Part shown: one piece after another, positions 1 through 36,175 of the stretch
Position numbering within the stretch: position 1 is the stretch's first letter
Layout of the letters: every line of letters begins with the position of its first letter
Program-made: the position numbers and the translations under genes
The notes under the pieces: generated by a model
Told to the model about the DNA's origin: nothing
The model's input: the letters and a program-made list of their open reading frames with translations, nothing else
Database searches by the model: none
Origin: Candidatus Didemnitutus sp.
Lineage (GTDB): Bacteria; Verrucomicrobiota; Verrucomicrobiia; Opitutales; Opitutaceae
Length of the DNA: 38,412 nt
Assembly (NCBI GenBank): GCA_023701285.1
Contig: JAMPXH010000030.1
Coordinates: 1 to 38,412 of the forward strand
Direction: 5' to 3'

Positions 1-1263
1 GCCGCGGCCGGAGCCATTACTGCCGGCGACCCAGACGCGGGCCTCGCCGGCGGACGCGGGCGTGCCGGTGATGGCACCAGTGACCGGATCGAGCGCGACA
101 CCGTCGGGCAGACGACCGCTGACGACCGTGAAGCCCGTGGGCGCGTTGGTGGCGGTGACCTGCACGCCGCTGAGGGCCGTGCCGGCCCGGCCGAGCACGA
201 TGGGCGAGCTGGTGATCACGGGCGCGTTCGGCGAGGCGTTGACCGTGACGGTGAGCGTGCCGACGGAGAGTCCGGCGCCGTTGGTGGCGGCGACGCCGAC
301 GACGCTGATGCCGGGCGCGGACGGCGTGCCGGTGATGGCGCCGGTGGCGGAGTCGAGCGCGAGGCCGTCGGGCAGGCCGCTGGCGGCGAAGCTCGCGGCG
401 GCGGGCGTCGTGGTGAGGGTGAAGGCGAACGGCGCACCGACGGTGGCGACGACCGAGGTCGCACTGGTGAAGCGCGGCGCGGTGGGCGCGGGATTCAGCG
501 TGAGCGTGACGACGGCGGTGGCGGAGCCGTCGGCGTTGGTCGCGCGGATCGCGAGCGGGAAGGTGCCGATCTCGGCCGAGGTGCCGGTGATCGCGCCGGT
601 CGAGGCGTTGAGCGACAGCCCGGCCGGCAACACCGAAGGCGAGCCGTCGGGCAGATTCACGAGGGCGTAGTTCGTGACGCCGGCGCCGAAGTTCGGCACG
701 TAGTTGAGCGCGGTGCCGGCGGTGGCGGCCACGCTGGGCGAGCCGGTGAACACGGGCGCATTGAGCGGCGCGAGGATGGAGAACGAGAGCACGGCCGAGC
801 TGCTGCCGGTGGCGTTCTGCGCCGTGAGGAGCGCGGTGTAGAAGCCGGCGAGGGTCGGCGTGCCGCTGATGACGTTGCCGGCGAGCGTGAGGCCCGGCGG
901 CAAGCCGACGGCGCCGTAAACCGTCGGCGCATTCGTGGCGGCGATGGTGTAGCTGAACGGCTGGCCGACGCGACCGCCGGTCGAGGCGGCACTGGTGATG
1001 ACCGGCGGCGGCGGCTGGACCGTGAGCCGCAGGACGCGCTGGTCCTGCCCGCTGACGTTGCTCGCGGTGAGCGTGATATCATACACGCCCGGCTGCGTGG
1101 GCACGCCGCTGAGCGTGCCGCTGGCCGCGGTGAACAAGAGACCGGGCGGGATCGGCGCGGCGACGAACGTGGCCGGGGTCTGGTTGGTCGTGATCTGATA
1201 CGAGAACGGCGCGTTCACCAACGCGGTGGCGGCGGACGGGCTGGTGATGAGCGGTGCGACCGG
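1..1263 (-). repeat. He_PIG (putative Ig) repeats at the visible C-terminal end of gene 1
   Basis: At least five units of about 80-90 residues occur, with the last cut by the window edge. Each begins APVITS-like and carries (L/V)PxGLxLxxxTGxIxGTPxxxG, for example LPDGLALDSATGAITGTP. This matches the putative-Ig / cadherin-like He_PIG family, usual in long secreted proteins. More copies may lie outside the window. Confidence 0.8.
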
Positions 1264-4200
1264 GTTCACGGTGAGCGCGACGCTGTCGCTCGTGACGGAG
1301 CCGGCGGCGTTGCGCACGACGACGCTGATCTGGCCGGCGTCGGCGAGCGTGAGGTTGGCGAGGCGCAGGCTGGGCGCGGTGGCGCCGGGGAGATCGAGGC
1401 CGTTACGGCGCCACTGGTAGGTCGGCGCAGGGATGCCCGTCGCGGTGACGCTGAACTCGGCGGTGCCGCCGACGACGACCGTGCGCGGCTGCGGCTGCGC
1501 CGTGAGGGCGACGCCGACGTTGAGCGTGAGCGTGGCGGTGCCGCTGGTGGCGGAGCCGAGCGCGTTGACGGCGGTGACGACGTAGTCGCCGGCGTCGGCC
1601 GCGGTGGCGGACGGGATGACGAGGATGGGCGAGTCGACGCCCTCGATCACGTTGCCGTTGTGCGTCCAGACATAGTCGACCGAGAAGGGCGACTCGGAGA
1701 CGACGGCCTTCAAGACGACGCGCGAGCCGGCGTTGGCCGTCTGGCTCTGCGGACCGGCGAGCACCGGAGCCCCGGCGGTCATGATGGTGCCGAAGTTGCC
1801 GACACCGACGACCTGCTCGCCGTGGAGCACGGTGTCGTTGAGCGGCTCGGCGGAGCCGGTGAAGCGGCCGGTCCACGTGAGGCCGTCGGTCGAGGTGTAG
1901 TATTGGTGGCCGTTGGCCGTGGCGATGAACCGGCCGGCGATGAAGTTCACCGAGGAGAGGTTTCCGTAGGTGAAGCGGACCGGGGTCCAGGCGGTGCCGT
2001 TGGTGGAGGTGGTCGCGAAACCGCCGCTGCCGACGGCCACGTAGATGCCGTTGCCGTGGGCGATGTCGTTGAGCGCAGAGCCGGAGCCGGCCAGTCGCAG
2101 GGTCCAGGCGGTGCCGTCGGTCGAGCCGACGATGCCGCCAATGCTGGTGACGGCGAGATAGCGGCCTCCGGCGATGACGAGCTTGCGGAGCTGGGTGGAG
2201 ACCGAGCTGCTGCTGGCCGTCCAGGCGGTGTTGTCGGTGGACGTGTAGATGTTGCTGTTCGCGCTGACGGCGACCCACTTCGCGCCGTCGTGGCGGATGC
2301 CGTTGAGGCTGGCGCCGTTCAGGCCGGTGCTGGCGACGTTGGTCCACGCGGAGCCATCAGTCGAGGAAAGCACGGTGCCGCCGTTGCCGACGGCGAGGAA
2401 GCGACCGTTGGCGTAGGTGACGTCGTTGAGGTTCTGCGTCGTGCCGGAGGCGCGATCGGTCCAGGTCGCGAGATCGGTGGTGCTGACGATGACGCCGCCA
2501 GCGCCGACCGCGACGACCGCGCTGCCGCTCGAGGCGACGCCGAGGAGGTTGGTGCCGTGACGCGGGCCGGTGATCTGGCTGGTCCAGGTGACGCTGTCGG
2601 CGGAGCCGAGCATGGCGCGGCCGGTGTTGCCCTGCTGGCCGACGACGATGTAGCGACCGTTGCCGAAGGCGGTGCTCTGGAGCACGCTCTGATTGCCGGC
2701 GGAGTTGCGGGCGGTCCAGAGGTTGCCGTCGAACGAGGTGAGGATCGTGCCGTTGGCGCCGGTGGCGACGAAGCGGCCGTTCACGAAGTCGATGCCGACG
2801 AGGTTCTGGGTGGTGCCGGAGTTGGCGTTGGCCCAGGTGGTGCCGTTGGTGGAGGTGACGATGACACCTCCCGCGCCGACGGCGACGAGGCGACCGGCGC
2901 CGTAAGCGAGGTTGCGCAGGCTCGCGGCGGGAGTCGCGGACCAAGTCCAGGTCTCGCCGTCGGCCGAGCTGTAGATGCGGCCGGTATCGGTCCCGATGGC
3001 GTGGAATTTGTTCAGCGTGTAGATGAGGCCGATGATCGTCTCGGTGACGCCCTGGCCGATGCTGCCCGGTGTCCAGGTGTGGCCGTCGGTGGAGCGGGCC
3101 GTGACGCCGCCGGTGCCGACCGCGACGAAGCGACCGCCGCCGTAGGTCATGTCCTGGAGCTGCGTGACGGCGCCGTCGAGGCCGGTGTCGCGCGAGGTCC
3201 AGATGCGGCCGTCGGTCGAGGTGATGATGAGATTGAGGCTGCCGAGGGCGACGTATTGGCCGTTCACGTAGCGGAAGCCGAAGAGGTTGTTCACTGCGGG
3301 GACGTGGCGCGTTTCCCAAGTGAGGCCGTCGTTGGAGACGAGCAGCGTGCCGCGGAGGCCGCCGACGATGAACTGGCCGTTGACGAAGGAGACGCGCGTG
3401 AGCCAGTTGCCGGCCGGGAACGGATTGCGCCAGCGCCAGCCCGCCTCGGGCGTGACGTAGATCGCATCGGCCGGCGTCGTGACGGTGGCGAGCGCATTCG
3501 CCACGGTGACGGAGTAGGCACCGGCGTCGGAGGGTTGCCAGTCCTGGAGGAACAACTGCTCACCGGTGGCGCCGGGGATGTCCTCGCCGTTGAACTTCCA
3601 CTGGAAGGTCATCGGGCGCGTGCCGGCGACGGGGAAGACTTGGAGGGCGGAATTCGAACCGGCCGGGAGCACCTGCGAACCGAAGGACGTGGAGATGTTG
3701 CCGAAGGCGCCGAAGGTCGGCGCGGACGGCGTGAATGCCACGGTCGCCGGCGCGGTGGCAATGGAGCCGAACGGCGAGCTCACGACGACGTGATAGCTGC
3801 CCGCGGTGCCGGCGTTGACGCCGTTGACGAAGAACGTGGACGAAGTCGCGCCTGCGATGGCGGTGCCGTTGCGATACCACTGGTAGCCGAGCGTGCCGGG
3901 GCCGCTGGCGTTGACGAAGAGCGTGAAGCCGCCGTTTTCGGCCACGGTGGCGCCGGCCGGCGGGGTGACGATCACGGGGGCAGCTGACACACCGGTGACG
4001 CGGTAGGTGGCGGGCAACGCATCGCCGGCAGTGCCCGGCGTGCCGAAGACGTAGAGTTGGTCGTTGGCCACGACCAGGTTCGCCGTCGCGACCGGCACGT
4101 CGCGGATGCCGAAGCCCGGGTTCCACGCGGTGTCGCGCGAACCGTCGGCGTTCAGCCGCAGCAAGCCCGGCGTCGCGAGGGTCTGCCCGTTGAAGGTCGT

Positions 4201-7200
4201 GAACCGGCCCGCGGCGTAGAGACGGCCGGCGGCATCGACCGTGAGCGCGCCCACATACGGTTGCGCATCGGTGGTGCCGGCCGCGATGCCGCTGCCGGTG
4301 AAGGTGGTGTCGAGCGTGCCGTTGGCGTTGAGCCGCACGAGGCCGCGCGGCACGCCGCCGAGCTGGAAGCGTCCGCCGACGTAGATCCTGCCATCGGGCA
4401 TCTGGACGGCGGCGCGCACGAGGTCGCCGGCGCTGTAGGTGCTGATCGGGAACTGGCCCGTGAAGCCCGTCGCCGGATCGGTCAGCACGCTCGTGAAGCC
4501 GGACGAAGGCGTGATCGTGCCGAAGGACGGCGCGGTGAACGTGGTGTCGAGCGTGCCGTCGGCGTTCAGGCGCTGGAGGCGGAGGTTGCCGTCGACCGCG
4601 GACACGACGATGAGCGCGCGGCCGTCGGGCAGGACTTGCGCGACGTTGAGGCCGCCGGTGCGGATCATCGTCACGGCGTTGTTGGTGTCGCGCTCGACGA
4701 TCGCGAACGACGAGAGGTTCGGCGCATAGGCGGTGTCGCGCGAGCCATCGGCGTTGAGGCGGAGGAGCGATTCGCCCGCGCCGCCGGAAAGGGCGACCTG
4801 CGCCGCCACCGTGCCCTGGGCGAGCAACAGACGGCCGCTGCCGCCGGCGTATGCCTGCGCGGTGCCGAGGTTGTAGTTGGCGGGCAACCGGGGAACGAAC
4901 GAGTTGTCCGTCGAGCCGTCCGCGTTGATCCGCAGGAGCGTCGCGTAGAAGGCGCCGTTCACGTTGCTGTTTTGCGACCAGATGACGTAGGTCTGGTCAC
5001 CCGCGGCGGGAGCGACGCTCGCGAAAGGCTGCGCGCGGGCGTAAGCCGGCGCCGCGGCCGGTGCCGCAAACTGATTGGCCGCGAGGGAGCCGGGGGCCGT
5101 GAATTGCGCGAGGCCCGCGAGCGTCGTGGCGCCGAAGCGGTTGAAGCCGCCGGCGAGCCAGACGCTGCCGGTGGAGAGGACGCGACCCGCGCTCGGATAC
5201 TGCACCCTGCCCCAGCCTCCGGTCTGGAAGGCGTGATTCGGCGCGCCGTTCGGATCGAAGCTGGCGATGCCGTTGCCCCAGATGGGTTGCGCGACCACCG
5301 CGCCCATCACCGTGGCGATGTCGGGCACGAAATAGCGGCCGTTGCTGCCGCGCTCGAGCCAGAAGGCCTCGCGATCGAAGGCTGCGCTGGCGAAGGAAGT
5401 GTCCGGCGCGCCGTTCGCCGTCACGCGCACGAGGCGGTCGCTGACGCCGATGAAGCTGTCGTCCGCGAGCATCACCAAATGGCGGAGACGCAGGCCGACG
5501 GCGGGATTGAACCCGAGCTGGCTGCGCAGCGGCTGGCCGTAGGTGGAGTCGAAGGTGCCGTCGGCGTTGAAGCGCACGGCCATGATCGGATCGGCACCGG
5601 AGCCGCGGCCCGTGTAGCGGAAATCACCGACGAAGACGGCGCGGCCGTCGGACTGGAGCGCGACGCTGCGGCCCTGCGATGAGAACCAGCCGGCCGGCAA
5701 AGAAGCGGCGTAGGCGCTGTCGAGCGTGCCATCGGCGTTGAGGCGCGCGACATTGCTGCGGGCCGTGCCGTTGATGGCGTTGAAGACGCCGGCGAGGTAG
5801 ATGCGACCTTGCGCATCCGTCACGGGCGGCCCGAAGAGCAGACCGGTGCTGTTGAGGAGAGCCGGCGCGAACGAGGCGTCGACGGTGCCGTTGGCGTTGA
5901 GCCGGTGCAGGCCCGGGGCGTTGGTCGCCAAAGCCCCGGCGGGCGCGTTGGCCTGGAGGTTGTCCGTGGCGACGACGAGCACCTTGCCGTCCGCCTGCGC
6001 GGTGATGAAGCGAATCGAGCGGGCGAAGAGCGGAGCCGCGAAGGTGCCGTCCACCGTGCCGTTGCTGTTCACGCGGATGACCGTGGTGGCATCGCCGGCG
6101 GCGACCGCGACGAGGACTTGGCCGTTCGCCAGCGGCGCGACGTGCATCGCGCGGCGGTAGCGGGCATCGAGTTTGAAGGTCGTATCGACATGGCCGGTGG
6201 CTTCGTCAAAGCGCACCAAGGCGCCGCGGAAGCGGCCGCCCACCCAGTCCGGGTTGCGGTCCTGGACCGACCACGGGACGTAGAGCCTGCCCGCGCCATC
6301 GGCCACGATCCGGGCCGGGCTGTGCTCGGTGCCGTATTCCGTGAATTGCTGCCAGAGCGCATTGTCCGTCGGCAGCACGGTGAGCGTGGCCACTTGGCTG
6401 AAGAGCGCACCGACCGCATCGGTGACGCGGACGGAGTAGCCGGCGCCGTCGTCGTTGAGCGACACCGCCGTGAGGGCTAGCGTTGCCGCATTCGCCCCGG
6501 CGAGGGGCTGGCCGTTGCGATGCCACTGGTAACTGAGCGGTGCGGTGCCGGTCGCGCCGACGACGAGCTGCACGTTGGAACCGGCCGAGACGCGGCGCGC
6601 CACGGGCTGGTCCACGATGCTCGGTCCGGTGGAGGCAACGGGCCCGACGCGCACGCCGGACACCGTCTCGCCGGCATCGGCAAAGGTGAAGATCCTGCGG
6701 TCGGCCGAAAGCACGAGCATCGGCACGCTGTCCGAATGGGACAGGCCCCACTCGCCGTTGTAATCGGCGGTGGCCTGCGCCGTCAGGGCGCCGGTGCTGG
6801 CGTTCCAAGTGAAGGTGCCGGACTCCAGTCCGTCGCGACCGCTGCTGTCGTCCTGCGGGCCGTCATCGGCGAGCAGGTAGGTGCCATCGGGGAAGAACAC
6901 GACCGCGGAGGATTGATCCGCGACGGTGGGATCGCCGACCACCCAGCCGCCCGTGAGCGTGCCGGGGGCGCCGAGGACGCGGGCCAACTGGATGTCGCCC
7001 TCACCGGGAATCGTGGCGGTGGCCACGTCGCCGGAGATGCGCACGGTGATGTCGTTGCGACCGTTCGCATCGGAGAGGCCGATGTCGCCGTTCGTGTCGG
7101 TGAGCGTGACGATGCGCAGTTCACCCGACGCGGGATTCCACGTGTAGGTGCCGCGTTCGAAGCCCGGCTGGGCGCCTTGCGCGATGTCCGCGGCGCTGGC

Positions 7201-10200
7201 GGTCTCCATATGGTAGTAGATGCCTTCGGGCAGGAAGAGGAGGACGGCATCGTTCACGCGCCACGTGCCGACGATGGCTTGGCCGGCGGCGGAGCGCGGG
7301 AGCGCGTTGTAGTTGGCGAGGAAACCGGCGGGCAGCTCGGCGACGAAGCCCTCGTTCACGCCGCGGTGGAGACCGCTGCCGAACACGAGCCGGCCATCCG
7401 GCGAGACGCCGAGCGCGCCGTCGAGCTTCCACTCGGCGAGATTCACGCCACCGGCGGCCAGTGCGCTGTGCAGGTGGAACCAGCCGTAGGCATTGCGGAA
7501 GTAGGTGTAGGAGCTGCCGCTGGTCAGGTTGGAGAAATAGGTCACGGCCACGGCGCCGTCCGCGGTGAGGCCGCCGAAGTTGGCCGGGCCCCAGGCGCTG
7601 TTGGGTGTGCCGAGGCGGCGGATCTGGCCGTTGACGGCGTTGTGGATCGCGAGCTCACCGCGCGAGGCGAACTGACTGTCGGCCGCGACGAGCGTTTGGT
7701 TGCCGTCGCTGGTGACAGCGAGCGCGCCGTTCCACGTGCCACCAGCGAGCAGCGGGAGGAGCGTGGTGGTGGCGTTGGCGTGCGTGTAACGGAAGGCACG
7801 GTTGCCAGGGACCGCCCAGGCGAAGTTGGTCTGGGTCGGATTGCTCGTGGTGCCGACGGCGACCGCGCCGTTGCTCGCGATGCCGCGGCCGGCGACGCTG
7901 CTCTCGGTGAACTCCGCGGCGGCGGCGGGCAGGAAGGTCATGGACGGACCGGCGACTTCGAAGCGCACGGCCTGGTTCACGCCGTTGGGGTTGGTGGCGA
8001 AGCCGTAAAGCACCGCGCCGTCCTCGCTGATCGCATTGGCCGCGCTGAAGCCGGAGACGCCACCGAGGCCGCCGAGATTCAAATTGGTCAAACCGTTCCG
8101 CGTGACGCGCACGGCATGGCGCAGCGAGCCGGTGTTCGCCCGGGCGCGGCTGGCGATGGAGGCGCCGTCGCGCGTGACCGCGGACGCCGTGATGAAGCTG
8201 GTCGCCGTGGTGTTGGCCACGAGATTGGGCAGGGCGACCAAGCCTTGGTCGGAAGTCCACAACACCGCCGTGTCGAAGACCGTGGAACCGGGATTGGCCG
8301 AAGCCGTGCCGACCGCGACGAGCGTGCCGCCCACGCGCGTCGCATCGCGCACCTGGCTGAGCGTCGCACCGCCGGAAAGGTCGCCGATGCCCGTGAGCGT
8401 GGCGAGCAACCCGGTGGTGTCGATGGTGGCGGCCGTGCTGGTGAAAGTCTGCCCGCCGGAAGCGGTCACCACGACATCGTAGGAACCGCCGTCAGCCGCG
8501 ATCGGGCTGGGGATGACGAAGGTGGAGCCGGTCGCACCGGGGACGTTCACCCCGTTGCGGCGCCATTGGTAAGTGTAGGGGCCGGGGCCGGCGACGCCGA
8601 CGAAGAGTTGCAGCGACTGGCCGGGCACGAGGCTCTGGGCCAGCGGCTGCGCGGTGATGCCGCTGGCGTTGGGTTCCGCGAGGCTGACGACGCGGAACGG
8701 CGTCGGCAGCGTGTCGGTGGCCGTGCCGACGGAAGAGCCGAACAGGTAGAGTTGATCGCCGACGATGCGGAGCTGGACCGTGAGCGTGGGATTTTCGGCG
8801 ATGCGGAGGCCCGGGTTCCATGCGCTGTCGAGCGTGCCATCCGGATGCAGGCGGCAGAGTCCGGCGACCGGCGTGCCGTTGTAGGAATCGAAGCGTCCGG
8901 CGAGGTAGATGCGGCCGGCCGCGTCCTGTTCGAGGGAGACGATGACCGGGGCATCCGCGCCGGACTTGGCGATGCCCGCACCGCCGGGATTGAAGGTGGT
9001 GTCGAGCGTGCCGTCCGGACGCAGGCGGAGCAGGCCCTTGGGCTGACCGGCGAGCGTGGCGGCGACATAGACGCGGCCGTCGGCCATCTGGCGCACCGCG
9101 CTGATGATGCCGCTGGCGGTGGAAGTGGAGATCGGCCACTGCGCCGAGGTGTTCGTGACCGGGTCGAAGGTGACCGGGGTGAAGCCGCTGGAGACCGCCA
9201 CGCTGCCGAAGCTCGGCGGCGTGAACGAGGCATCGAGTTCGCCGGTGGAGAGCAAGCGCTGCAGGCGCAGGTTGCCGTCCACCGCGGCGATCGTGACGAG
9301 GATGCGCCCGTCAGGGAGGATCTGGTTGACGGTCAGGCCGCCGGTGCGGATGGCCGTGACGGTGTTGTTGGCGCCGCGTTCGACGATGGCGAAGGAGGAA
9401 AGATTCGGGTTGAAGCCTTCATCGCGGGAACCGTCCGCGCGCAGGCGCAGGAGGGCGCTGCCGGCATTGCCCGCGAGGGCGGCGCCGGCGCTGACCGAGG
9501 ATTGCGAGAGGACGAGCTTGCCGTCGGGCGAGGCGTGGAGCGTCGTGGAGCCGCCGAGGCCATAGCCGGCGGGCAACTCGGGCACGAAGGAGGCATCCAC
9601 CGTGCCGTCGGCCGCGAGGCGTTGGAGGACTTGGAACGCGCTGTTGTTCGTGTTGGCCGCGTTCATGAAGGCCACGAAGACGCGGTCGCCGCCCGCGCTG
9701 GCGATGGACGAGAAGGGCTGGAGCCGGGCGCCGAGCGGCGCGCCGGCGGGGAAGTTCGCCTGCGTGCCCGTGAGCTGGCCGGCGGCGGAGAACTGCGCGA
9801 GGCCGGGCAGCGGCGCGCTACCGTAGCGATTGAACACGCCCGCGAGCCAGACGCGGCCGTCCGGCAGCGCGACACCGTTGCTGGTGCGGGTGGAGCGACC
9901 CCAGCCGCCGGTCTGGAAGCTGGTCACCGGAGCGCCGGAGGCCGAGAACACGGCGAGGCCGTTGTGCCACACGGGAAGGACGCTCGCAGCACCGTTCACG
10001 CCGGCGAGGTCGGGCACGTAGATCTGGCCGACGAGGCCGACCGCGAGCCAGAAGGTTTCGCGCGTGAACGTGGAGGCGGTGAAGGTGGTATCGAGCGCGC
10101 CGTTGGCGGTGAGGCGCACGAGGCGGTTGCTCACGGCGACCATGCGATCGTCGGGGAGAAGCTCCAGCCAGCGCAGGCGCAGGCCGGTGCCGAAGCCGAG

Positions 10201-16722: not shown

Positions 16723-16838
16723 GACGGAAGAGACGGGATTGGAAAGGAACGGGGATTGCGGGCGCAGCCAAGCGGGCGACTGACGCGCGCACGCGCGGCC
16801 AACCCTCAAAAGGGACGAGAAGTTCATGGTGACCAAAA

Positions 16839-16850
16839 TGTGTGTGTGTG
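16839..16850. repeat. (TG)6 dinucleotide tract, read as (CA)6 in the gene 1 leader
   Basis: Six TG units lie just upstream of an in-frame ATG at 16827 and 117 nt upstream of the preferred start. The gene 1 frame is open back to a TAG at 16872..16870, so the tract lies inside the open frame only if translation started upstream of it. Confidence 0.6.
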
Positions 16851-16863
16851 ATCGCTCAAACGT

Positions 16864-16878
16864 GGCGCCCTAGGCGCC
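16864..16878. other. Short inverted repeat GGCGCC-CTA-GGCGCC
   Basis: Two GGCGCC palindromes are separated by CTA and can form a 6-bp stem with a 3-nt loop. It lies about 145 nt upstream of gene 1 and its middle carries the TAG that closes the gene 1 frame. There is no following T-run, so a terminator is unlikely; function unknown. Confidence 0.35.
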
Positions 16879-17149
16879 GGAAACGACTGAACGAAAAATG
16901 GACGCGCCCCACCCTGCCCGACGTGCGCCGCCACGCTCGCCCGTTACCGGGGTGCCGGGCCGCGCAGTCAACTCCGGTCGCGCCCAACGCACCGCAGCGC
17001 GGGACGCAGAAGGCGAAAACGCCACTGCGGAAAAAATCCGGCACAGGACCGGACGCGTGGATTCCAGGGGCATGGATGAGCGCGTTGATGCACAGCGCCC
17101 GCCAGCAACGCACGTTAATTATCTCTGAATATTTTCCCTATTAAGTTTC

Positions 17150-17232: not shown

Positions 17233-17273
17233 AAAAAAACGCTCCAGCCAGATCTCACTGCCCGATCCGGAGC
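17233..17273 (-). terminator. Candidate intrinsic terminator of gene 2
   Basis: On the minus strand GCTCC pairs with GGAGC, an inner GATC pairs with GATC, and the arm is followed by G and seven T residues (17239..17233). The stem is interrupted and overlaps the stop codon of gene 2, which is unusual. The T-run directly after the stem is the main support. Confidence 0.4.
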
Positions 17274-24604: not shown

Positions 24605-24643
24605 GATGAGTGAGTATCGAGGTGAGATGGAGTCCACCTGCGC

Positions 24644-24657
24644 CGCAGTTAACTGCG
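24644..24657. promoter_or_regulatory. Perfect 14-bp palindrome CGCAGTTAACTGCG upstream of gene 2
   Basis: The two halves are exact reverse complements with no spacer. It ends 39 nt upstream of the chosen ATG, a position suited to an operator or an mRNA hairpin in the leader. No known regulator is assigned. Confidence 0.4.
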
Positions 24658-24805
24658 TCCCCGATGAACACGTCGAAGCATTGATCTCTTCGATCGCCCT
24701 GGCCCGTGAGCCGCCGAAGTTACGCTTTGCTACCAGTTCGCCGGGGCCTTTCAAGCCGCCCCAGCAGTGACGGCCGCGCAAAGTAACGCGTCACGACAGT
24801 CGAGG

Positions 24806-24827
24806 TGGCCGGCCTAATAGCCGGCCA
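24806..24827 (-). terminator. Hairpin after gene 3, candidate terminator
   Basis: TGGCCGGC and GCCGGCCA form a perfect 8-bp G+C-rich stem with a 6-nt loop, beginning 17 nt after the gene 3 stop on the minus strand. No T-run follows, so it may be a Rho-assisted terminator or an mRNA-stabilising hairpin rather than a classical intrinsic terminator. Confidence 0.45.
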
Positions 24828-24844
24828 TGCCCATCAGCCAAGGA

Positions 24845-27800: not shown

Positions 27801-30800
27801 TCGGCGACGTAGAGGTTGCCGGAGCGGTCGGCCGCGAGACCGAAGGGTTGGTTGAAGCGCGCATTGGCGCCCACGCCGTCGGCGCTGCCCGCGACGCCGG
27901 CCGCGCCGGCGAAGACGGACACCTGGCCCTGCGGGGTGATGCGGCGGATGACGTGGTTGCCCGCCTCGGCGACGTAGACGTTGCCGCCCGCGTCCGTGGC
28001 GATCGCGGTGATGCCGTTGTAGGTTGCCTGGGCGAGCGCACCGTTCGCGGCGCCGCTGCCGTTCGGCGTGCCGGTGTAGAGCGCCCAGTTCCAGCTGTAG
28101 TTGATGGCGAGGCGCAGGTCGCCGGTGGCGCCGCCCACGCCGTCGACGGCGATCTGGAAGACGTCGCCCGCGTTCGCAACGAAGCGGACGCGGCTGAATT
28201 TCCGGCCGGGGTCGCCCGCGTGCTCGGCGACGAGTTGGAGCGCAGCGAGCGCATCGCCGCGATAGACGGCCAAGCGCGTGTCGAAGGTGCTGCCGAGGGT
28301 ATCGATCGTGACATCGCCGTTGGCGGGCGCGGTCCACGTGAACCACGTCGACCGGCTCGCAGGCGCACCGGCGTGGGCGGGCTCGCCCGGTTGCGCGGTG
28401 GCGGAGTAGTTGTAGGTCGAGAGCGACACTTGCGCGCCGAGGATGCGCGCGCGACTCGCGAACGAGTCGTTCGCGGGCAACGGCAGGATCTCGACCACGG
28501 CTGCGTCGCCGACGAGCGAGCCGAGGCTGTTCGTCGCGACGAGCGTGTAGCTGCCGCTTTGCGCGGGCTGCGCGTCGGTCAGCGTGAGCGTCGGCAAAGT
28601 CGCGCCCGGGACATCCACGCCATTCCGCTGCCATTGGTAGCTCGGCGCAGGATTGGCGACGGCGGAGCCGGTGAGTGTGACAGTCGTGCCGGCGATGACG
28701 CGCACGCCGCGCGGCTGCAGGCCGCGCTGGGGCGCCTGCGGCGTGCTGCTGAGCACGCCGACGCGCAACGTGTGGTTGCCTTGGTCGGTGACGTAGATGC
28801 GCCCCTGGCCGTCGGTCGCGATCGTCGCCGGGAAGTAGAATCCGACTTCGAGGCCGACGCCATCGGCGGCGCGAGTCGGTGCGCCGCCGGCGACGGTGAG
28901 CACGAAATTGTCCGGTGTGAGCTGGCGGATGGCGTTGGCGCCGCGATCGGCGATGAGGACGGAGCCGTCGGCGAGCGCGAGCACGCCGTTGGGTTGGGAA
29001 AACAGCGCCGTCGCCGCCGGGCCGTCGATGTAGCCGGGAGAGCCCGCGACCCCGGCGACCGTGGTGACGACGCCGGCGGGCGTGATCTTGCGGATCGTGC
29101 GATTGCCGTAATCGGCGGCGTAAACCGTGCCGTCGGCGGCGACGGCGACGCCTTCGACGGCGTTGAACCGCGCGGCCGTGCCTGTGCCGTCGACCGCACC
29201 GGAAGTCCCGGGCAGACCGGCGAGCGTCGTGACGACGGCCGACGGGCTGATCTTGCGCACGGCATGATTGCCCGCCTCGCCCACATGGAGGTTGCCCTGC
29301 GGGTCGACGGCGATCGCGGCCGGTTGGTTGAAGCGCGCCGCCCCGCCGGTGCCATTGGCCGTGCCGGCGGCGTTCGTGCCGGCGAACGTCGATGTCGCGC
29401 CGGTGTTCGGGTCGACGCGGCGGATCGCGTGGTTGTTCGCATCGGCGACGTAGAGGAATCCGTTCCAATAGACGATGCCCGCCGGGAGATTGAAGCGTGC
29501 GGCGCTGCCGGTGCCGTTCACGTAACCTTCGGCGCCCGCCAGGCCGGCGAGCGTCGTGACGACGCCGGCGGGCGTGACTTTGCGGATGGTGTGATTGTTG
29601 AGGTCGGCGACGTAGATCGTGCCGTCGGGGCCGACCGCGGAGCCGTTGAGGCCGCGGAAACGCGCGGCGCTGCCGGTGCCGTCGGCCGAGCCGGCGTTCT
29701 CCGCGAGACCCGCGATGGTCGAGAACGAGTAGGCGAAGGCCACGTGCACGGCGACGGCGCCCGGGAAACCGCCGACGCTGTCGACGGCGATGCGATACGT
29801 CGTGCCTTCGACCGCCACGAACATCGCGCGGGCGCGGCGCCAATTCAGCGAACCCAGCGGCGTCTGCTGGCCGCGCGCGACTTCCGTGAGCGTCGCGGGC
29901 GCATCGCCCGTGTAGACGGCGACCGCGGTGTCGACCGCGCTGCCGGAGGTGTCGACGATGACGGTGCCGGAGGCCGGCGCGGTCCATGTCCACCAGACGG
30001 AGGTGCCGCTGCCGTTGCCGGCGTGCCACGGTTCGCCCGCCTCGCGCGTGGCACCGGCGGTGTTCGATGTGCCGGCGGCGAAACCGCCTGTCAGCAGCGG
30101 CGCCTGCGCAAATAGATCGTTGGCCGGCGGCGTGCCGAGCGTGAGCGTCGCTTCCGCGGACGTGATCGTGCCGCCGGCGTTGCTGACGATGACGCGATAC
30201 GCGCCGACGTCCGCGGCGCTGACCGCGGACAGGCGCAACGTGGCGGAATCGGTGCCGGGCAGGTCGACCTGATCCCGTTGCCAACGGTAAGTGAGCCCGG
30301 TGCCCGTCGCCTGCACATTGAAGTAGGCCGACTGACCCGGGAAGACGGTCACGGACACCGGCTGCGCTTGGAGCCCCGGGGCAGACGTAACCGTCGGGAG
30401 CGCGAAATCGGCCGGCACGATGCGCTGCAGGCGACTCTGCCCCACGGCCCAACCACTCATCCCGCCGGTGAGGATGACGTTGTTGCCGATGGACGGACTG
30501 AGGAAGGTCTGGCTTCCGTCGCGCCCGAACTGGCGCACGCCGTCGCCCGCGACGACGATCAGGTTGCCGTCCGGATCGATTGAAATCGTGGAGTAGCCGC
30601 GATTGGCGCCGTAGTAATGCACCGTGCGCACATCGCCGGTCGGCGAGAGCGAACGCACCGCGGACCCGCTGCCGAAGGAGCCGACCGCCCCGCTCTCGGT
30701 GAAGAACAACATGCCGTCGGGCGCGCGGACGATGTCGCCCGGGCCGAGCAAGCGCGCCGCGCTGCCCACGCCGTCGGCGGGTGGCGCCGAGCGCGAGTTC

Positions 30801-33800
30801 TGCGTGCCGACGAGCGTCGTGACGGCGTTGGTCGCGAGCGTGAGCTGGCGCAACAGCACGTTGCCCGCATCGACGATGATCAGCGCGGTCTCGTCCGCAT
30901 TCAACGCGAGGCCGCTCAGGGAGCTGAAGCGCGCCGCCGCTCCGACCGCATCGACATAGCCGAACTGCGAGGTCGAACCGGCCAGCGTCGTGATCGTGCC
31001 ATCGGTCCCGATCCGCCGGATCGCCGCGCCGTCGACCACATAGAGCGTGCCGTCACCGGCCCGCGTGAGCGCCGTCGGATTCTGCAGCATCCCCTGCCCC
31101 GCCGGTCCATCGACCGCGCCCGCGCTGCCCTCGATGCCGGCGACGATCGCATACCCGCCGGCCGCGGTGCGTTTCCGGACGACGCGCTGCGCCGGATCGG
31201 TGAAATAAAGCGCGCCGTCCGCGCCGGCGATCACGCGCTGAGCCGACGGATTTTCCGCCAGCGCCTGCGTCGCGAGCGCATAGCGCAACCCGAGCTGGAT
31301 CTCGCCGGTCTGGTTGTTGCGGCCCGCGACCGCGATTTGATACGTCGTGCCCGCGGTGATGGCCAACGTCACCGTGGGCGGCTCCGCGATGCTTCCGGTG
31401 GCGCCGGCCAGCCGCTGCAGACCGGTCAGCGTATCGCCGGTGTAGATGGCGAGCGCCGGGTTGAAGCTCGAACCAGCCAGACTCGCGATCACCGTGCCGT
31501 CGGTCGGCGCCGTCCAGGTGAACCACACGGAGCTGCCCGTGTTGTTCTCGAGGTGCGCGGGTTCGCCCGGCTCCGGCGACGCGGTGTAATTATGCGTCGT
31601 GCGCGCCACGGGCAGTGTCGCGAGCGGCTCGCGCGCCGCGAAATTATCGTTGGCCGCCGCGCCGTAAACGCGCAGCGCGATCGGGGCGGAGACGACGGTC
31701 GTGCCGCCTTGCGTGGCTTCGAGCGTGTAGCGGCCGCTGTCGCCGGGCTGCGCCGCGGCGAAAACCAGACGTTCGCCGACCGCGCCGGGAACGACCTGGC
31801 CGTCGCGCTTCCACGCGAGCGTCGGCGTCGGGTTGCCGACGACATGGGCGAACACCTCCACCCGCGTGCCCGCCGCGGCATAGCGGCCGGGCGACACGGC
31901 CACGATCGCGACCGCGCGCGGCATCGTGCTCGGCTCGGCGCGACGGATCACCGTCTCCGACGCGCTTGAGATCAGCAGCGAGCCATCGGCGTTCAGCACC
32001 ATGTCGCCGTTCTGCGTGAAGCGCGCCGCCAGACCCGCGCCGTCGCGCATCACGATTTGCGACTCGGTGTCGCCCGCGAGCGTCGCGACCTGCCCGTCGG
32101 TGCCCCAGCGCCGCAGCGCGCGCAGGACACGTTCGTAGAAATACACGTTGCCCGCCGCGTCGGTGGCGATGCGGTAGGGCTGCGAAAGCGCGACCTCCGC
32201 GGCCGGACCGTCTCGCGCGGGCTTGCCCGCGCCGCCGAGCACGGTCGTGACGGCGTTGTCCGCGAGATTGAGCCGGCGCAGCGTGTTGCCGTTGGTGTCG
32301 GCGACGAGCACCTGGCCGTCGGCGCCGAGCGCCAGATCCTCGATGCGGCTGAAGCGCGCCGCCGTGCCGACACCATCGAGTTGCCCGGAAGTGGTGGAAC
32401 CAGCCGCGGTCGTCACCGCGAGCGTGGACAGCACGAGGCGCCGGATCACGCGACCGCTTTGATCGGCGAGGTAGAGCGAGCCGTTGGGGGCCGCGACGAG
32501 CGCGCTGACGCCGGAGAAGCGCGCCGCCGTGCCGGTGCCGTCCGTCGAGCCGGAGGTGTTCCACGCACCCGCGAGGGTCGTGACGACGCCGGCGGGCGTC
32601 ATGCGGCGCACGGTATAAGCGTCCGCAAAGTAGAGATTGCCGTCCGCCGCGACGGCCATGCCGACCACCTGCGGGATGCGCGCCACGCTGCCGGTGCCGT
32701 CGACGGACGTGGACGTTTGCATCGCCGCACCCGCGATCGAACTGACTTCGCCGGTGGGCGTGATTTTGCGGATCAGGCCCGCGTCCCAGAGATAGACGTT
32801 GCCCGCAGCGTCGCGCGCCATCGCGTTCACGTAGCCGAAGCGCGCCGCGGCGAGCGTCGGGGCATCGAGCTGGCCCGATGAGCCCACCTGACCGCCGACC
32901 GTGACGACCGTGTAGCCATAGTGGAGCGCAAGCCGCAACGCCCCTTCGCTCGGCGCGAAGTCCGCGAGGCCGTCCACCACGAAGCGATACATCGTGCCCG
33001 CCGTCACCGGCACCGACACGCGCGTGAAGTTGTCCGCCGCGTTGTCGTCCTGCGCGAGCAACTGCAGCGCGCCGAGCGTGCCGCCGGAGTAAACGGCGAG
33101 CGTGTTCTTCATCTCGGCGCCGATGGTCTGCACGACGATCGTCCCGTCGCTCGGTGCGATCCACGCCCACCAGACGCTGCGGCCCGCCGCCGCGGCGCCG
33201 GGGCGGACGGGCTCGCCGCTCTCGCGCGTCGCACCGTAATTCTGTCCCGTCGCGGCAGCCGCCGCGCCGCTCAACACCGCGGCGTTGGCGAAGGCGTCGT
33301 TCGCCGCGACCGGTTGCACGCCGAACGCGACTTCGGCCGTCGTCGTCGCAATGCCGCCCGCCGTGACGGTCACGGAATAATTGCCCGCATCCGTCAATGC
33401 CGCGCTGGGGAACGTCAGCGCCGGCGCGGTCTGGCCCGCGAGCGGGCTGCCATTCTTGCGCCATTGGTAAGTGACGGTGGGGCCGCCGTAGGCCGTGACG
33501 GAGAACGTCGCCGCCGCGCCCTCGCCGACCGTGCGCGCCGCGGGTGCCGCGGTGATGACCGGGGCGACGTTGCCGGAAGTCGCCGCCGCGCGATACACGC
33601 TGCGCGACGAGGTGTAGAAGAGGTTGCCGGCCGGGTCGACCAGCACGCCCTGCGGCTCGCCTGCCGCGACGGCCAGCGGATCGCCCGCGCTCAGGCCGCC
33701 GGTCTGGTTGCCGTTGCCGACGTGCAGCGCGATGCGGCCGTTCGGGCTGATGCGCCGGATGGCGTAGAGGCTGGCGAAATAGAGATTCCCCACGGCATCC

Positions 33801-36175
33801 GCGCGCAGCGACGTGCCGTTGCGGCCGATGACGTCGCTGCCTTCGGCCAGGGTCGTGACGGCCAGCGTCGGCAGATCGACCACGCGCAGGCGGTTGGACT
33901 GCTGGCTGAGCGTGTTGTCGATGAAGTAGAGCTTCGTCCCGACGACGACGAGACTGCGCGGCAGGTAGAGCTGCGCGGCAGCGCCGTTGCCATCGGCGGA
34001 GCCAAACTGCCCCGGCGTGCCGACGATCGTCGTGACCGCGCCCGCCGGCGTGATGCGGCGGATGACGTGGTTGCTCTGGTCGGCGACGTAGAGGTTGTTC
34101 GCCGCGTCGATCGCCACGTCGTAGGGCCAGCTGAAACGCGCCGCGCCGCCGGTCGCGTCGACGTGGCCCGACGTGTTCTCCGCCCCGGCGAGGATGGAGA
34201 CCGCGCCCGCCGACGTGATGCGGCGGATGACATGCCGCACGGGATCGGCGACGATGAGGTTGCCCGCCGAGTCGAACACCAAGCCGAGCGCCTGCACGCC
34301 GGTGACGAAGTTCGCCACGACGCCCGCCGGCGTGATGCGGCGGATCGTGTTGCCGTCGCCGACGTAGAGATTGCCGGCCGCATCGCGCGCCAACGGTCCG
34401 GCACTGGTGAAGCGCGCATCGAGAGGATTGGTGGCGTTGGTGCTGCCCGACTCGGTGGGCGAGCCCGCGTAAAGCGCGGCTACTTGCGCGTAGGCGAGCG
34501 AGAGGTGCGCCGCGCCGGGAGCCGAGGCCTCGACTCGCTCCACCGCGAGGCGATACACGGCGCCCGCGGTGACGGCGAACGTCACACGCGTCGGGTTGTC
34601 GAGCGAGGCGTAGGCGGAGAGCGCCGGCACCGGCGTGAGGGCGTCGACGGAGTTGCCGGTGTAAACCTGCACGACGGACGGCGTCGTGGACGCGGCGACC
34701 TCGGCGCGCACGAAGCCGGTCGACGGCGCGGTGAAATTCCACCACAGCGAACCGCCGCTCGCGCTGCCGTTGTGCGCGGGCTCGCCGGCTTCGCGCGTCG
34801 CGCCGATGTAGTCAGCGCTCACGGTCACCGGAGCGGAGTTGAGCGCGAGTGCGCCGGAGAAACTGTCGTTGGGCGAGACGGCCTGCACGTGCAGGGCCAC
34901 ATCGGCGGAGGTGGCGGAGCCGTTCTCGTTGCTGGCGCTGACGCGGTAGAGCGCCGCGTCGGCAGGGGTGAGATTGCTCAGCGTCAACGTCGGGCCCGTC
35001 GCGCCGACGATCGCCTGACCGTTCTTGAACCATTGGTAGACCGGCGTCGGCGTGCCCCACGCGACGACGGAGAAGGTGTGGCTGCCGCCGAGCAGGCCCG
35101 TGGCCGCCACGGGCGGAAACTCGATCGCCGCTGGCGCCGGGACGCCCTCGAGCGCGATCCAGCGTATCCGGCTTTCATCGACCACCACGAGCCGGCCGCC
35201 GGGGCCGAGCGTGAGCGCACCCGGATCGCGGAAGCGCACGACGCTGCCCGCGCCGTCGACCCGCTCGGCGGGCAAATCCGCGCCCAGCAACGTGGTCACT
35301 TCACCCGCCGGCGTGATGCGGCGCAGACGACGCAGGTCGAGGACGTAGGCATTGCCCGCGCTGTCGACGGTCAGATACCGCGGATCGTAGAAGCGCGCGG
35401 CGGCCCCGACGCCATCGATCACGGCGGAACTGGCCGAGCTGCCCGCCACCGTGCTCACGCTGCCGTCGGGCGCGACGCGGCGCAGGCGGTTGCCGTCGAT
35501 CACCCAGACGTCGCCGGACGGCGTCACCTCGATCTCGCGCAGCGAGGCGAAGCTCGCGACCGCGCGCGGACCGTCGAGGCCGCTGGAGTCGTTCGTGCGG
35601 CCGGCCAGCGTGGAGACGAAGCCGTCGGGGTTCATGACGCGGATCAACCGGTTCGAGGTGTCCGCGATGTAGAGGTTGCCCGCCGCATCGCCGCCCAGAT
35701 CGCCGGGCGAGAGCCACAGCGTCGTGCCCATCGCGTCGCGATCGCCGAAGACGCTGCCCCCGCCGGCCACGACCGTGGTCGTGCCGTAGAAATTGAGTTG
35801 ATAGACCTTCTGGCTGTCGGCGACGAACACGCGTCCGTCGATCATCGTCACGAGTCCAGTAGTCTGGTTCGGCAACGAGTTGGGCGAGAGCTGCACCAGA
35901 AGGGAGCCCGGCTCCGCCGAGACGCGGCCAAAATAGGCGCCGGTGGTCCAGTAAAGCGTGTGAGTGGAGGCTTGGTAGGCCAGGCGCGAGGCGGAGAGAA
36001 ATTCCGGATAACTCGGCGTCGTGACGATCGGCGGACGATCTTGCCCGAGCAGGTCGCCGCCGCCCAGGAGCGTCAGGCCGAGGAGCAGACTCGCGACCCG
36101 GCAAAGCAAGGTGCTGGCAATACGAGAACCGGCGCGAGCGTGGACACGCGCCTTCCGGCTTACAGGGACAACCAT
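24845..36175 (-). CDS. Secreted 3776-aa NHL-repeat / Ig-like / PPC-like protein with Ca-binding-like C-terminal module
   Basis: The frame is open from ATG 36175 to TAG at 24845. A basic N-terminus and the hydrophobic run VASLLLGLTLLGGGDLLG suggest an atypically long signal peptide ending near residue 45. Seven NHL blocks (60-345, 566-872, 1092-1423, 1640-1925, 2155-2477, 2705-3022, 3242-3572) carry units like DGVGSAARF..P.GLAVDA.GNLYVAD..N..IRKITP.G.V.TLAG. Between successive blocks lies an Ig-like domain and then a PPC-like beta-sandwich (NDxFAxAxxL, AT.EAGEPAHAG, S.WW.WTAP.SG, LAVYTG). The C-terminus has an MBG-like domain, the DFDRDGFSNLVEYALGLDP loop and the module shared with gene 2. NHL repeats form propellers that bind proteins, sugars or RNA in known families; no catalytic site was seen here. 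An extracellular scaffold or adhesin is an inference. I saw only one cysteine after the signal region. No Shine-Dalgarno at the usual distance. Confidence 0.92.
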   Translation of the reverse strand: MVVPVSRKARVHARAGSRIASTLLCRVASLLLGLTLLGGGDLLGQDRPPIVTTPSYPEFLSASRLAYQASTHTLYWTTGAYFGRVSAEPGSLLVQLSPNSLPNQTTGLVTMIDGRVFVADSQKVYQLNFYGTTTVVAGGGSVFGDRDAMGTTLWLSPGDLGGDAAGNLYIADTSNRLIRVMNPDGFVSTLAGRTNDSSGLDGPRAVASFASLREIEVTPSGDVWVIDGNRLRRVAPDGSVSTVAGSSASSAVIDGVGAAARFYDPRYLTVDSAGNAYVLDLRRLRRITPAGEVTTLLGADLPAERVDGAGSVVRFRDPGALTLGPGGRLVVVDESRIRWIALEGVPAPAAIEFPPVAATGLLGGSHTFSVVAWGTPTPVYQWFKNGQAIVGATGPTLTLSNLTPADAALYRVSASNENGSATSADVALHVQAVSPNDSFSGALALNSAPVTVSADYIGATREAGEPAHNGSASGGSLWWNFTAPSTGFVRAEVAASTTPSVVQVYTGNSVDALTPVPALSAYASLDNPTRVTFAVTAGAVYRLAVERVEASAPGAAHLSLAYAQVAALYAGSPTESGSTNATNPLDARFTSAGPLARDAAGNLYVGDGNTIRRITPAGVVANFVTGVQALGLVFDSAGNLIVADPVRHVIRRITSAGAVSILAGAENTSGHVDATGGAARFSWPYDVAIDAANNLYVADQSNHVIRRITPAGAVTTIVGTPGQFGSADGNGAAAQLYLPRSLVVVGTKLYFIDNTLSQQSNRLRVVDLPTLAVTTLAEGSDVIGRNGTSLRADAVGNLYFASLYAIRRISPNGRIALHVGNGNQTGGLSAGDPLAVAAGEPQGVLVDPAGNLFYTSSRSVYRAAATSGNVAPVITAAPAARTVGEGAAATFSVTAYGGPTVTYQWRKNGSPLAGQTAPALTFPSAALTDAGNYSVTVTAGGIATTTAEVAFGVQPVAANDAFANAAVLSGAAAAATGQNYGATRESGEPVRPGAAAAGRSVWWAWIAPSDGTIVVQTIGAEMKNTLAVYSGGTLGALQLLAQDDNAADNFTRVSVPVTAGTMYRFVVDGLADFAPSEGALRLALHYGYTVVTVGGQVGSSGQLDAPTLAAARFGYVNAMARDAAGNVYLWDAGLIRKITPTGEVSSIAGAAMQTSTSVDGTGSVARIPQVVGMAVAADGNLYFADAYTVRRMTPAGVVTTLAGAWNTSGSTDGTGTAARFSGVSALVAAPNGSLYLADQSGRVIRRLVLSTLAVTTAAGSTTSGQLDGVGTAARFSRIEDLALGADGQVLVADTNGNTLRRLNLADNAVTTVLGGAGKPARDGPAAEVALSQPYRIATDAAGNVYFYERVLRALRRWGTDGQVATLAGDTESQIVMRDGAGLAARFTQNGDMVLNADGSLLISSASETVIRRAEPSTMPRAVAIVAVSPGRYAAAGTRVEVFAHVVGNPTPTLAWKRDGQVVPGAVGERLVFAAAQPGDSGRYTLEATQGGTTVVSAPIALRVYGAAANDNFAAREPLATLPVARTTHNYTASPEPGEPAHLENNTGSSVWFTWTAPTDGTVIASLAGSSFNPALAIYTGDTLTGLQRLAGATGSIAEPPTVTLAITAGTTYQIAVAGRNNQTGEIQLGLRYALATQALAENPSAQRVIAGADGALYFTDPAQRVVRKRTAAGGYAIVAGIEGSAGAVDGPAGQGMLQNPTALTRAGDGTLYVVDGAAIRRIGTDGTITTLAGSTSQFGYVDAVGAAARFSSLSGLALNADETALIIVDAGNVLLRQLTLATNAVTTLVGTQNSRSAPPADGVGSAARLLGPGDIVRAPDGMLFFTESGAVGSFGSGSAVRSLSPTGDVRTVHYYGANRGYSTISIDPDGNLIVVAGDGVRQFGRDGSQTFLSPSIGNNVILTGGMSGWAVGQSRLQRIVPADFALPTVTSAPGLQAQPVSVTVFPGQSAYFNVQATGTGLTYRWQRDQVDLPGTDSATLRLSAVSAADVGAYRVIVSNAGGTITSAEATLTLGTPPANDLFAQAPLLTGGFAAGTSNTAGATREAGEPWHAGNGSGTSVWWTWTAPASGTVIVDTSGSAVDTAVAVYTGDAPATLTEVARGQQTPLGSLNWRRARAMFVAVEGTTYRIAVDSVGGFPGAVAVHVAFAYSFSTIAGLAENAGSADGTGSAARFRGLNGSAVGPDGTIYVADLNNHTIRKVTPAGVVTTLAGLAGAEGYVNGTGSAARFNLPAGIVYWNGFLYVADANNHAIRRVDPNTGATSTFAGTNAAGTANGTGGAARFNQPAAIAVDPQGNLHVGEAGNHAVRKISPSAVVTTLAGLPGTSGAVDGTGTAARFNAVEGVAVAADGTVYAADYGNRTIRKITPAGVVTTVAGVAGSPGYIDGPAATALFSQPNGVLALADGSVLIADRGANAIRQLTPDNFVLTVAGGAPTRAADGVGLEVGFYFPATIATDGQGRIYVTDQGNHTLRVGVLSSTPQAPQRGLQPRGVRVIAGTTVTLTGSAVANPAPSYQWQRNGVDVPGATLPTLTLTDAQPAQSGSYTLVATNSLGSLVGDAAVVEILPLPANDSFASRARILGAQVSLSTYNYSATAQPGEPAHAGAPASRSTWFTWTAPANGDVTIDTLGSTFDTRLAVYRGDALAALQLVAEHAGDPGRKFSRVRFVANAGDVFQIAVDGVGGATGDLRLAINYSWNWALYTGTPNGSGAANGALAQATYNGITAIATDAGGNVYVAEAGNHVIRRITPQGQVSVFAGAAGVAGSADGVGANARFNQPFGLAADRSGNLYVADTDNHTIRKIVIATATVSTIAGAAGQYGYVDATGTAARFATPAGVAVNAAGELFVSDYSNKLIRKLTLATGAVTTFAGGLNTSGNSARYYSAPWGLAIDSAGNLFVADNANIRKVLPDGTGVEFAGDINGVTGFSDGAGGIARFNRPTQLAIDAQDNLYVTDLNNNVVRQISPRGEVRTIGGEPSRNAHNVGTAEAAAFGNPRAIAIDAGGFLYVGTMMSLIDIGQRQAGPGAPRIVTQPEPQSVASGGTVSFTVVASGQPAPTYQWRRNGTPLEGATSPVITLTNVTQIGSYDVVVTNANGSVTSRAAGLTLASAPTNDAFAHALALTGNSVTASAFPTAATAEAGEPAHAGAPATRSLWWSWMAPAGGVVVVQTAGSAVDTRLAVYTGGNVGALTLVAANDDALAGGASRVQFLATPGTTYFIAVDTNPTAGSSLGGVRLGVDYAYVVSTFAGSPGQAGAANGQGSAARFTNPSSIARDSAGNLYVAEPTQHVIRKIAPDGTVSVFAGAVGQSGATNANGAAARFNLPYGLAVDAANHVFVADYGNRVIRRITPAGDVTTFAGAVGQGGATDGAAANARFNLIFGLAFDASGALYATDLGNHNVRKISAGTVTTLAGSTTGVAGALDGTTTAARFNQPRGLTVDAQGNVYVADFGNHTVRQITPAGVVTTLAGFAGSQGVTDGLGSNARFTGPCAVAFAAPDRLFVTDASHRVRAVSTVDGLATTAAGSTEGAAEGIALAARFDVPIAIVATPDGVLYVADHDNHTLRALTPSTQVAVAQSIGFAPLLDRAYTPLPITLSATTTSGLPVVFELVAGDASLDGNQLTLLGTGTITIRATQPGDATHLAAEPVTRSFTVTPNFLSWELDRFTPEQLGNPALTGPNADFDRDGFSNLVEYALGLDPQVASHANVPTVAVSASEWTFTYTRPADRSDVIYTVQTSTNLTTWTDVAATRTATGPTETWRATVPVTGNPNLVFRLKVQR
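24901..25113 (-). repeat. C-terminal module repeat, copy in gene 3
   Basis: This is the partner of 17308..17520, with about 95% DNA identity. It encodes the final EWTFTYTRPADRSDV module. Upstream parts of the two genes encode different propeller classes and are not similar at this level. Confidence 0.85.
25460..35130 (-). repeat. Six Ig + PPC-like + NHL supermodules in gene 3
   Basis: Each unit is about 510-555 residues. Ig parts begin near 35128, 33560, 31900, 30400, 28740 and 27108. The PPC-like parts open with an ND.F motif near 34875, 33305, 31650, 30120, 28470 and 26850. NHL parts follow each. Short DNA words recur exactly; the 17-mer ACGACGCCGGCGGGCGT occurs at 25794, 29067, 29559 and 32583. 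A first NHL block precedes the array. Confidence 0.8.

Follow-up and report, generated by a model that had tools for sequence, protein, structure and literature searches.

What kind of proteins do three giant genes lying one behind another in a verrucomicrobial genome encode, and do they belong together as a conserved set? The question is raised by a window of 38,412 nucleotides from Candidatus Didemnitutus sp., which comprises the whole of contig C163 in a 4.02-Mb genome assembled into 220 contigs and 95% complete. Positions 1-36175 are covered by three tandem minus-strand open reading frames (Table 1), and the original prediction of three consecutive giant genes, encoding at least 5574, 2449 and 3776 residues, was confirmed. 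Since the window is an entire contig, gene 1 is cut by the assembly. The signal-peptide-like N-termini that had been proposed for all three giants were borne out by hydropathy, the measure on which the signal peptides of the three proteins were judged throughout: the probable start codons of genes 1 and 2 each lie shortly upstream of a hydrophobic core, and in gene 1 the residues MKIS are followed by a core with a 13-mer hydropathy of 2.35.

The genes are separated by gaps of about 240 and 530 nt, with two terminator-like sites between genes 2 and 1 (mean in shuffles, 1.0). Promoter scans of the three intergenic stretches revealed no consensus site, and tRNA, Rfam and tandem-repeat scans of the window returned no matches. 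The GC3 of gene 2 (0.755) is lower than that of gene 1 (0.906) and gene 3 (0.888); a lower GC3 was also seen in several other RCC1-bearing members of the family. Beside the cluster, at the contig edge, lies an IS3-family transposase fragment (37643-38410, minus strand; NF033516, 204 bits), and upstream of gene 3 are two small genes (36640-37041 and 37176-37613, plus strand) that look exported or lipoprotein-like by eye. This right flank was rejected as a synteny marker, its 133-aa gene (36640-37041) being present in 1 of 13 genomes of the genus, namely its own.

Table 1. Features of the window and of related loci. Block borders are approximate because the local HMM profiles were built from segments of the window itself.
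Feature	Position	Strand	Basis or remark
Gene 1, ORF	16836..1	-	5612 codons, open at contig edge
Gene 1 from probable ATG (Met39 of ORF)	1..16722	-	at least 5574 aa, 3' end lost at contig edge
Gene 1, first YCF48/BNR-like propeller block, 10 repeats	14347..15993	-	local HMM; sub-threshold Sortilin, DUF6242, F510_1955
Gene 1, delta-60 (DUF5122) block 1, 12 repeats	11701..13689	-	curated models and local HMM
Gene 1, delta-60 block 2, 11 repeats	8815..10815	-	curated models and local HMM
Gene 1, HAF-like stretch (weak)	7948..8187	-	sub-cut-off TIGR02913; position from local HMM
Gene 1, delta-60 block 3, 12 repeats	4120..6255	-	curated models and local HMM
Gene 1, second YCF48/BNR-like block, 13 repeats	1867..3393	-	local HMM; DUF6242 43.3 bits, cut-off 29
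Gene 1, He_PIG (putative Ig) array, five domains, cut by contig end	1..1257	-	PF05345, E = 1.1e-34
Gene 2, ORF	24781..17255	-	2508 codons
Gene 2 from probable ATG (Met60 of ORF)	17255..24604	-	2449 aa, four RCC1 blocks
Gene 2, RCC1 block 1	22925..23668	-	curated model and local HMM
Gene 2, RCC1 block 2	21584..22156	-	curated model and local HMM
Gene 2, RCC1 block 3	20261..20923	-	curated model and local HMM
Gene 2, RCC1 block 4	18869..19600	-	curated model and local HMM
Gene 2, presumed MBG-like domain preceding tail	17633..17863	-	local HMM
Gene 2, C-terminal tail domain (CTD)	17258..17614	-	sequence profile
Gene 2, tract homogenised with gene 3	17318..17524	-	codon comparison; 58/69 codons identical
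Gene 3	24845..36175	-	3776 aa, seven NHL blocks in NHL-Ig-PPC repeat
Gene 3, last NHL block	25460..26485	-	local HMM; within modelled unit 25436-27121
Gene 3, presumed MBG-like domain preceding tail	25226..25456	-	local HMM
Gene 3, C-terminal tail domain (CTD)	24848..25207	-	sequence profile
Gene 3, tract homogenised with gene 2	24911..25117	-	codon comparison
Metzincin-type protease heads on CTD-tailed propeller/Ig proteins	L100 5818-14568; L135 4832-9631; L098 8670-13040
Second giant triplet, genome G005 (6797, 4940, 4224 aa)	L088-L090, C1 9170-57950
CTD-bearing He_PIG/Ig gene after apparent gene 1 end	L124 (C157) 863-2620	+	same order in G005, G008

Repeat architecture of the three proteins

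Repeat maps of all three genes were drawn with local HMM profiles built from window segments and compared with curated models. Ig_3 or I-set domains were matched in all three proteins, with Ig_3 in genes 1, 2 and 3, in agreement with the repeated Ig-like linkers described earlier. The different propeller classes that had been assigned to the three genes were upheld by curated models for delta-60 in gene 1 (TIGR02608 in 13 and 5 stretches of its two halves, E = 5.5e-111 and 1.8e-49, together with DUF5122), RCC1 in gene 2 (RCC1_2 in 13 stretches, E = 1.9e-104) and NHL in gene 3 (NHL, E = 9.6e-84; TEN_NHL, 1.8e-79), E-values by which these classes are not chance matches. The YCF48 blocks of gene 1 stood as a BNR-like class and not as YCF48 proper: the YCF48 model had no match in gene 1, where BNR-like models alone responded (Sortilin-Vps10, DUF6242 and F510_1955), and of these only DUF6242, in the second half, reached its cut-off. 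The HAF propeller proposed for the same gene was not confirmed, as TIGR02913 scored 12.4 bits (E = 0.12), below its cut-off of 22.65.

Gene 1 runs through Ig2, ten YCF48-like repeats, Ig, twelve delta-60 repeats, Ig2, eleven delta-60 repeats and Ig, and it continues with the HAF-like stretch, Ig, twelve delta-60 repeats, Ig2, thirteen YCF48-like repeats, Ig2 and five He_PIG domains cut by the contig end, corresponding to the five PF05345 matches on C163. Gene 2 consists of Ig3 and four RCC1 blocks separated by Ig pairs, followed by Ig, a domain that we take to be MBG-like and a C-terminal domain (CTD). Gene 3 is built of six NHL-Ig-PPC units and a seventh NHL block, followed by a domain of the same presumed type and the CTD; its PPC domains, located between Ig and propeller (PF04151, 36.6 bits), had been missing from the original prediction. 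The three window proteins yielded no match to protease or other enzyme domains.

An Ig-PPC-NHL unit of gene 3 was modelled from an alignment that contained just its five sister units; the predicted fold had a pLDDT of 84.9 and superposed on solved NHL propellers (among them TRIM71 and the designed Pizza6) at a target-normalised TM of ~0.80-0.87. The first-ranked PDB matches of this model were teneurins, with a poor overall superposition (rmsd 13-18). This likeness to teneurin and YD-repeat proteins is set against a difference, in that no RHS/YD repeat or toxin family matched the three window proteins at E<=0.01.

A terminal domain spread through the phylum

The common C-terminal plan that had been claimed for the triplet holds for genes 2 and 3, which terminate in the CTD of ~120 aa, and not for gene 1, whose visible end consists of He_PIG repeats. 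When the last 122 residues of gene 2 were searched against their own genome, 53 matches were obtained at E<=0.01, self included, and at all 30 loci that were fetched the CTD ends 2-8 aa short of the stop. Five genomes of the genus supplied a second set, of 53 distinct copies (32 from the own genome, G000, and 6, 6, 5 and 4 from the other genomes G005, G007, G010 and G008), in which every copy ends 0-6 aa short of the stop. These distances lean low because the sequences behind the profile themselves extended to the stop, and none of the 53 proteins continues beyond the CTD. Outside the genus, the best CTD match ends 0-6 aa from the stop at 20 of 20 chosen loci in 19 genomes; the same 20 loci held two further weak partial matches (32.0 and 18.4 bits) at non-terminal positions. 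The CTD is a C-terminal tag on very different predicted proteins of the phylum. In one genome, this single uncurated domain marks the ends of dozens of proteins, and at least 108 of the 288 phylum genomes contain it (match at E<=1e-6, with up to 15 candidates scored per genome), copy counts per genome being lower bounds. Among 19 other genomes, reached via an RCC1 search, short partial matches were found in three and full matches in none, and one of the genomes that gave no match is titled Spartobacteria, a class of Verrucomicrobiota.

By a crude hydropathy test, 32 of 43 CTD-bearing ORFs have an N-terminal hydrophobic core, compared with 48 of 776 segments from the interior of these proteins; some of the remaining 11 may have wrong starts. 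Over a stretch of about 30 kb, the own genome has a run of several smaller CTD-bearing genes (L102-L103, contig C16). No curated family covers the domain, a PDB sequence search with the CTD profile gave 0 matches at E<=1, and literature searches found no description of the CTD or of the protein family, which does not prove absence. The predicted CTD structure, obtained from a two-row alignment, was poor (pLDDT 54), and the PDB matches of that model (first E = 5.6e-04, TM 0.28) were left out of account.

Sorting tag or binding module

T9SS substrates of Bacteroidota combine a signal peptide with a strictly C-terminal sorting domain, and many unrelated passengers occur per genome. The CTD resembles such domains in being strictly terminal on varied passengers of one genome (53/53 copies terminal, 32/43 ORFs with hydrophobic cores). 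It differs in that the NCBIfam families to which any of 30 CTDs gave a match at E<=1 included no T9SS sorting-domain model, and in that SprA exceeded its cut-off in 0 of 288 phylum genomes, with one sub-threshold match and none in the own genome. The first 14 control genomes for SprA included no positive and two genomes were added; positive controls were found in Flavobacterium enshiense (2827 bits) and one Bacteroidetes/Chlorobi bin. T9SS identity of the tail route was ruled out by the lack of a T9SS tail model and of SprA. Here, we tentatively propose, as a possible reading, that the CTD is a sorting tag of an undescribed outer-surface secretion or anchoring route of this phylum, functionally parallel to the T9SS and using other machinery, of which the giants would be the largest clients, with gene 1 as a tagless client held by a small tagged neighbour. 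If it is a sorting tag, the CTD would offer a handle on the transport of enzymes and scaffolds to the surface and a search profile for further clients.

The CTD could alternatively be a binding or folding domain and not an address. One such explanation, that it is a substrate- or Ca-binding module merely placed last on freely secreted polymer-binding or polymer-degrading factors, draws on the resemblance of its first third to a TSP3 loop, with TSP3_bac matched in 1 of 30 CTDs (8.6e-05), on weak matches of a galactose-binding family in 5 of the 30 (best E = 0.0092; best NCBIfam E, 0.0042), and on the proteases and the GH72-like protein among the CTD-bearing relatives. Binding modules are usually found at internal positions as well, and against this explanation stands the terminal position of all 53 copies, the two weak non-terminal partial matches notwithstanding; we consider it unlikely.

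These CTD-bearing relatives, often with the same propellers, gave M11, M12B, M10 and GH72-like matches over cut-off, and the HExxHxxGxx[HD] motif is intact, for example, in own-genome proteins of contigs C183 (2916 aa), C185 (1599 aa) and C199 (1456 aa). Both the motif and a metzincin domain are absent from the three window proteins; the motif is also absent from many family members, including a 6797-aa giant of G005 with a borderline Reprolysin match. With protease heads on some of the relatives and none here, the window genes resemble members of a protease/scaffold family that do without the protease.

Gene 1 and its tagged neighbour

Gene 1 itself appears to have no CTD. Its counterparts in G005 and G008 contain eleven He_PIG domains followed by a stop, without a CTD, and the next gene downstream, which begins 347 bases from that stop in G005 and 47 in G008 (start as placed), encodes a signal-peptide-like start, four He_PIG domains, Ig and the CTD. 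In the own genome, contig C157 opens with matching He_PIG domains, a stop and, after 9 bases, a 585-aa gene that is 55.7% and 57.4% identical to the neighbour gene of G008 and G005, respectively. Because the window end and the start of C157 lie 263 residues apart against both G005 and G008, we take C157 to be the continuation of gene 1 beyond a gap of ~0.8 kb and to include its end. The own genome very probably has a pair of gene 1 and CTD-bearing neighbour like that of G005 and G008. Overlapping frames in G005 had hinted at a frameshift separating gene 1 from its neighbour; this was rejected, since three genomes each show a stop and then a new hydrophobic N-terminus.

Beyond the CTD gene of C157 lie what we take to be rng and rodA. 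Downstream of rng, CTD, PPC or Ig genes occur in G000, G010, G008 and G006, with differing members at L138-L139 (G010 C16), L177 (G008) and L178 (G006), and none were found in ~15-16 kb of G004 and G001 nor in ~7 kb of G009. A fixed rodA-rng island for such genes was not upheld, given G004, G001 and G009, and was retained as a lead; the contigs of G005 and G011 end too early.

Conservation of the triplet and exchange of modules

Three adjacent genes on the same strand with a shared plan, together with another giant triplet in G005, would suit a conserved, co-evolved multi-protein machine (a surface layer or a system for prey or polymer capture) that needs all three propeller classes. The neighbourhoods in relatives, a comparison that the original prediction had itself named as a refuting test, partly refuted a conserved triplet. 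In G010, where two contig-edge pieces are assumed to form one gene 1-like gene, a presumed recJ-like gene lies upstream of its start, and genes that we take to be pyrG and rsmE-like lie upstream of the gene 3-like gene; as these upstream genes differ, the arrangement gene 3, gene 2, gene 1 has not been preserved. Within the 60 kb examined from each of G005 and G008, gene 1 has neither gene 2 nor gene 3 beside it, and among the matches listed for G007, a genome that is 86% complete, those to all three queries are partial. The machine was thus rejected on the neighbourhoods of G010, G005 and G008 and is very improbable; the window triplet is a lineage-specific cluster. The G005 triplet, with predicted RCC1 (13 blocks), RCC1 plus YCF48-like, and delta-60 content and the CTD on all three proteins, shows that giant clustering recurs with other members, and the G008 homologues of its first and third genes are located on different contigs.

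Comparison of gene 1 with its counterparts revealed where modules differ. At the visible end of gene 1, a span of ~1,330 residues, residues 4285-5610 match the G005 protein at 52.9%, and residues 4287-5612 the G008 protein at 53.6%. In the middle, the G005 and G008 proteins are made of NHL/PPC, and gene 1 carries additional delta-60 blocks and the HAF-like stretch in that place; the three delta-60 regions of gene 1 each align with a single shared region of the G005 or G008 protein, at 29-38%, and the NHL/PPC part of the G005 and G008 proteins has no partner in gene 1. Judged from these alignments, module replacement between giants is real.

A second kind of exchange affects the gene 2 and gene 3 tails. 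Across 20-codon windows that begin at gene 2 codons 2420-2470, the two genes share 88-100% nucleotide identity, compared with 78-80% at the tract edges and 40-58% in windows further upstream, and the tract includes one 63-base exact match. The GC3 of the gene 2 tract (0.873, versus 0.753 before and 0.667 after it) and of the gene 3 tract (0.944) suggests gene conversion into gene 2. The best 40-column tail windows between gene 2 or 3 and genes on C199, C183 (two) and C159 are also 88-96% identical, at positions that are not always the same. The cluster thus displays both module replacement and tail conversion between giant genes. The proposed swapping of repeat classes on a common plan is supported by gene 1 against G005 and G008 and by the tail exchange of genes 2 and 3, and does not extend to gene 3, whose NHL content is constant: its paralogue on C199 (59%) and its homologue on G010 C35 (57%, contig ending inside the gene) both have seven NHL blocks. 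The count of seven recurs in each of the three copies compared, so reshuffling does not affect every member of the family.

The same retention bears on whether the giants are neutral genes, that is, repeat expansions, selfish or in decay, that serve no dedicated function. The lower GC3 of gene 2 could be read in this way, as could the strain-specific giant genes reported by an earlier study cited in PMC11573180. Opposed to it are frames of 7-17 kb that are open and stop-free, the seven NHL blocks of gene 3 retained at 57-59% identity in two homologues, and the 13 RCC1 blocks common to the G005 and G008 giants, and we regard neutral expansion as scarcely credible.

Discussion

The three genes, whose architecture, signal-peptide-like starts, terminal tag and recombination are established by sequence, are probably members of a large family of exported, often giant, tail-addressed binding scaffolds. 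As for their working, we infer export, surface location, binding and partner anchoring as follows. The Sec pathway would export the chains, and the CTD would direct or hold the protein at the outer surface or matrix, through machinery other than a SprA-type T9SS. The propellers may present many binding faces to polymers, proteins or other cells, and the CTD-bearing neighbour may retain the gene 1 protein through the similar He_PIG arrays of the two. The family would evolve by whole-module replacement and by gene conversion of tails. What makes the cluster notable is the tail rather than the triplet.

How does such a family compare with known systems? PEP-CTERM/exosortase proteins are exported and bear a C-terminal tag. 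The CTD differs from that tag in having, by eye, no PEP motif, transmembrane segment or basic tail. PEP-CTERM-like ends were seen by eye on other genes of the own genome. Repetitive beta-propellers, as described in PMC9218822, have been amplified from single blades in RCC1/BLIPII and other lineages, bacterial included, whereas the window giants combine several classes on one plan with Ig linkers, gene 1 doing so in one chain. The PVC superphylum had already been noted for huge proteins (PMC11573180).

The nearest analogue of the window cluster is the Giant1-5 set of Apilactobacillus kunkeei, consecutive genes for exported proteins of 3,000-8,000 aa, as presented in PMC12863079. Consecutive giant genes with signal peptides (by hydropathy in our case), long repeat bodies and recombination within the cluster are common to both, as is a shared C-terminal attachment domain, SH3b-like there; the synonymous divergence of giant4a/5a falls at the C-terminal ends (PMC12863079). 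The two differ in that A. kunkeei is a lactic acid bacterium, whose giants have beta-solenoid heads, helical or beta-sheet repeats and another C-terminal domain, with propellers not mentioned in the sections consulted. A cluster of the A. kunkeei type would have its C-terminal attachment domain on all members, and here the CTD is carried by genes 2 and 3 and the gene 1 counterparts are without it. Exported giants were already known, and in the family described here the shared part, the CTD, can be followed across proteins.
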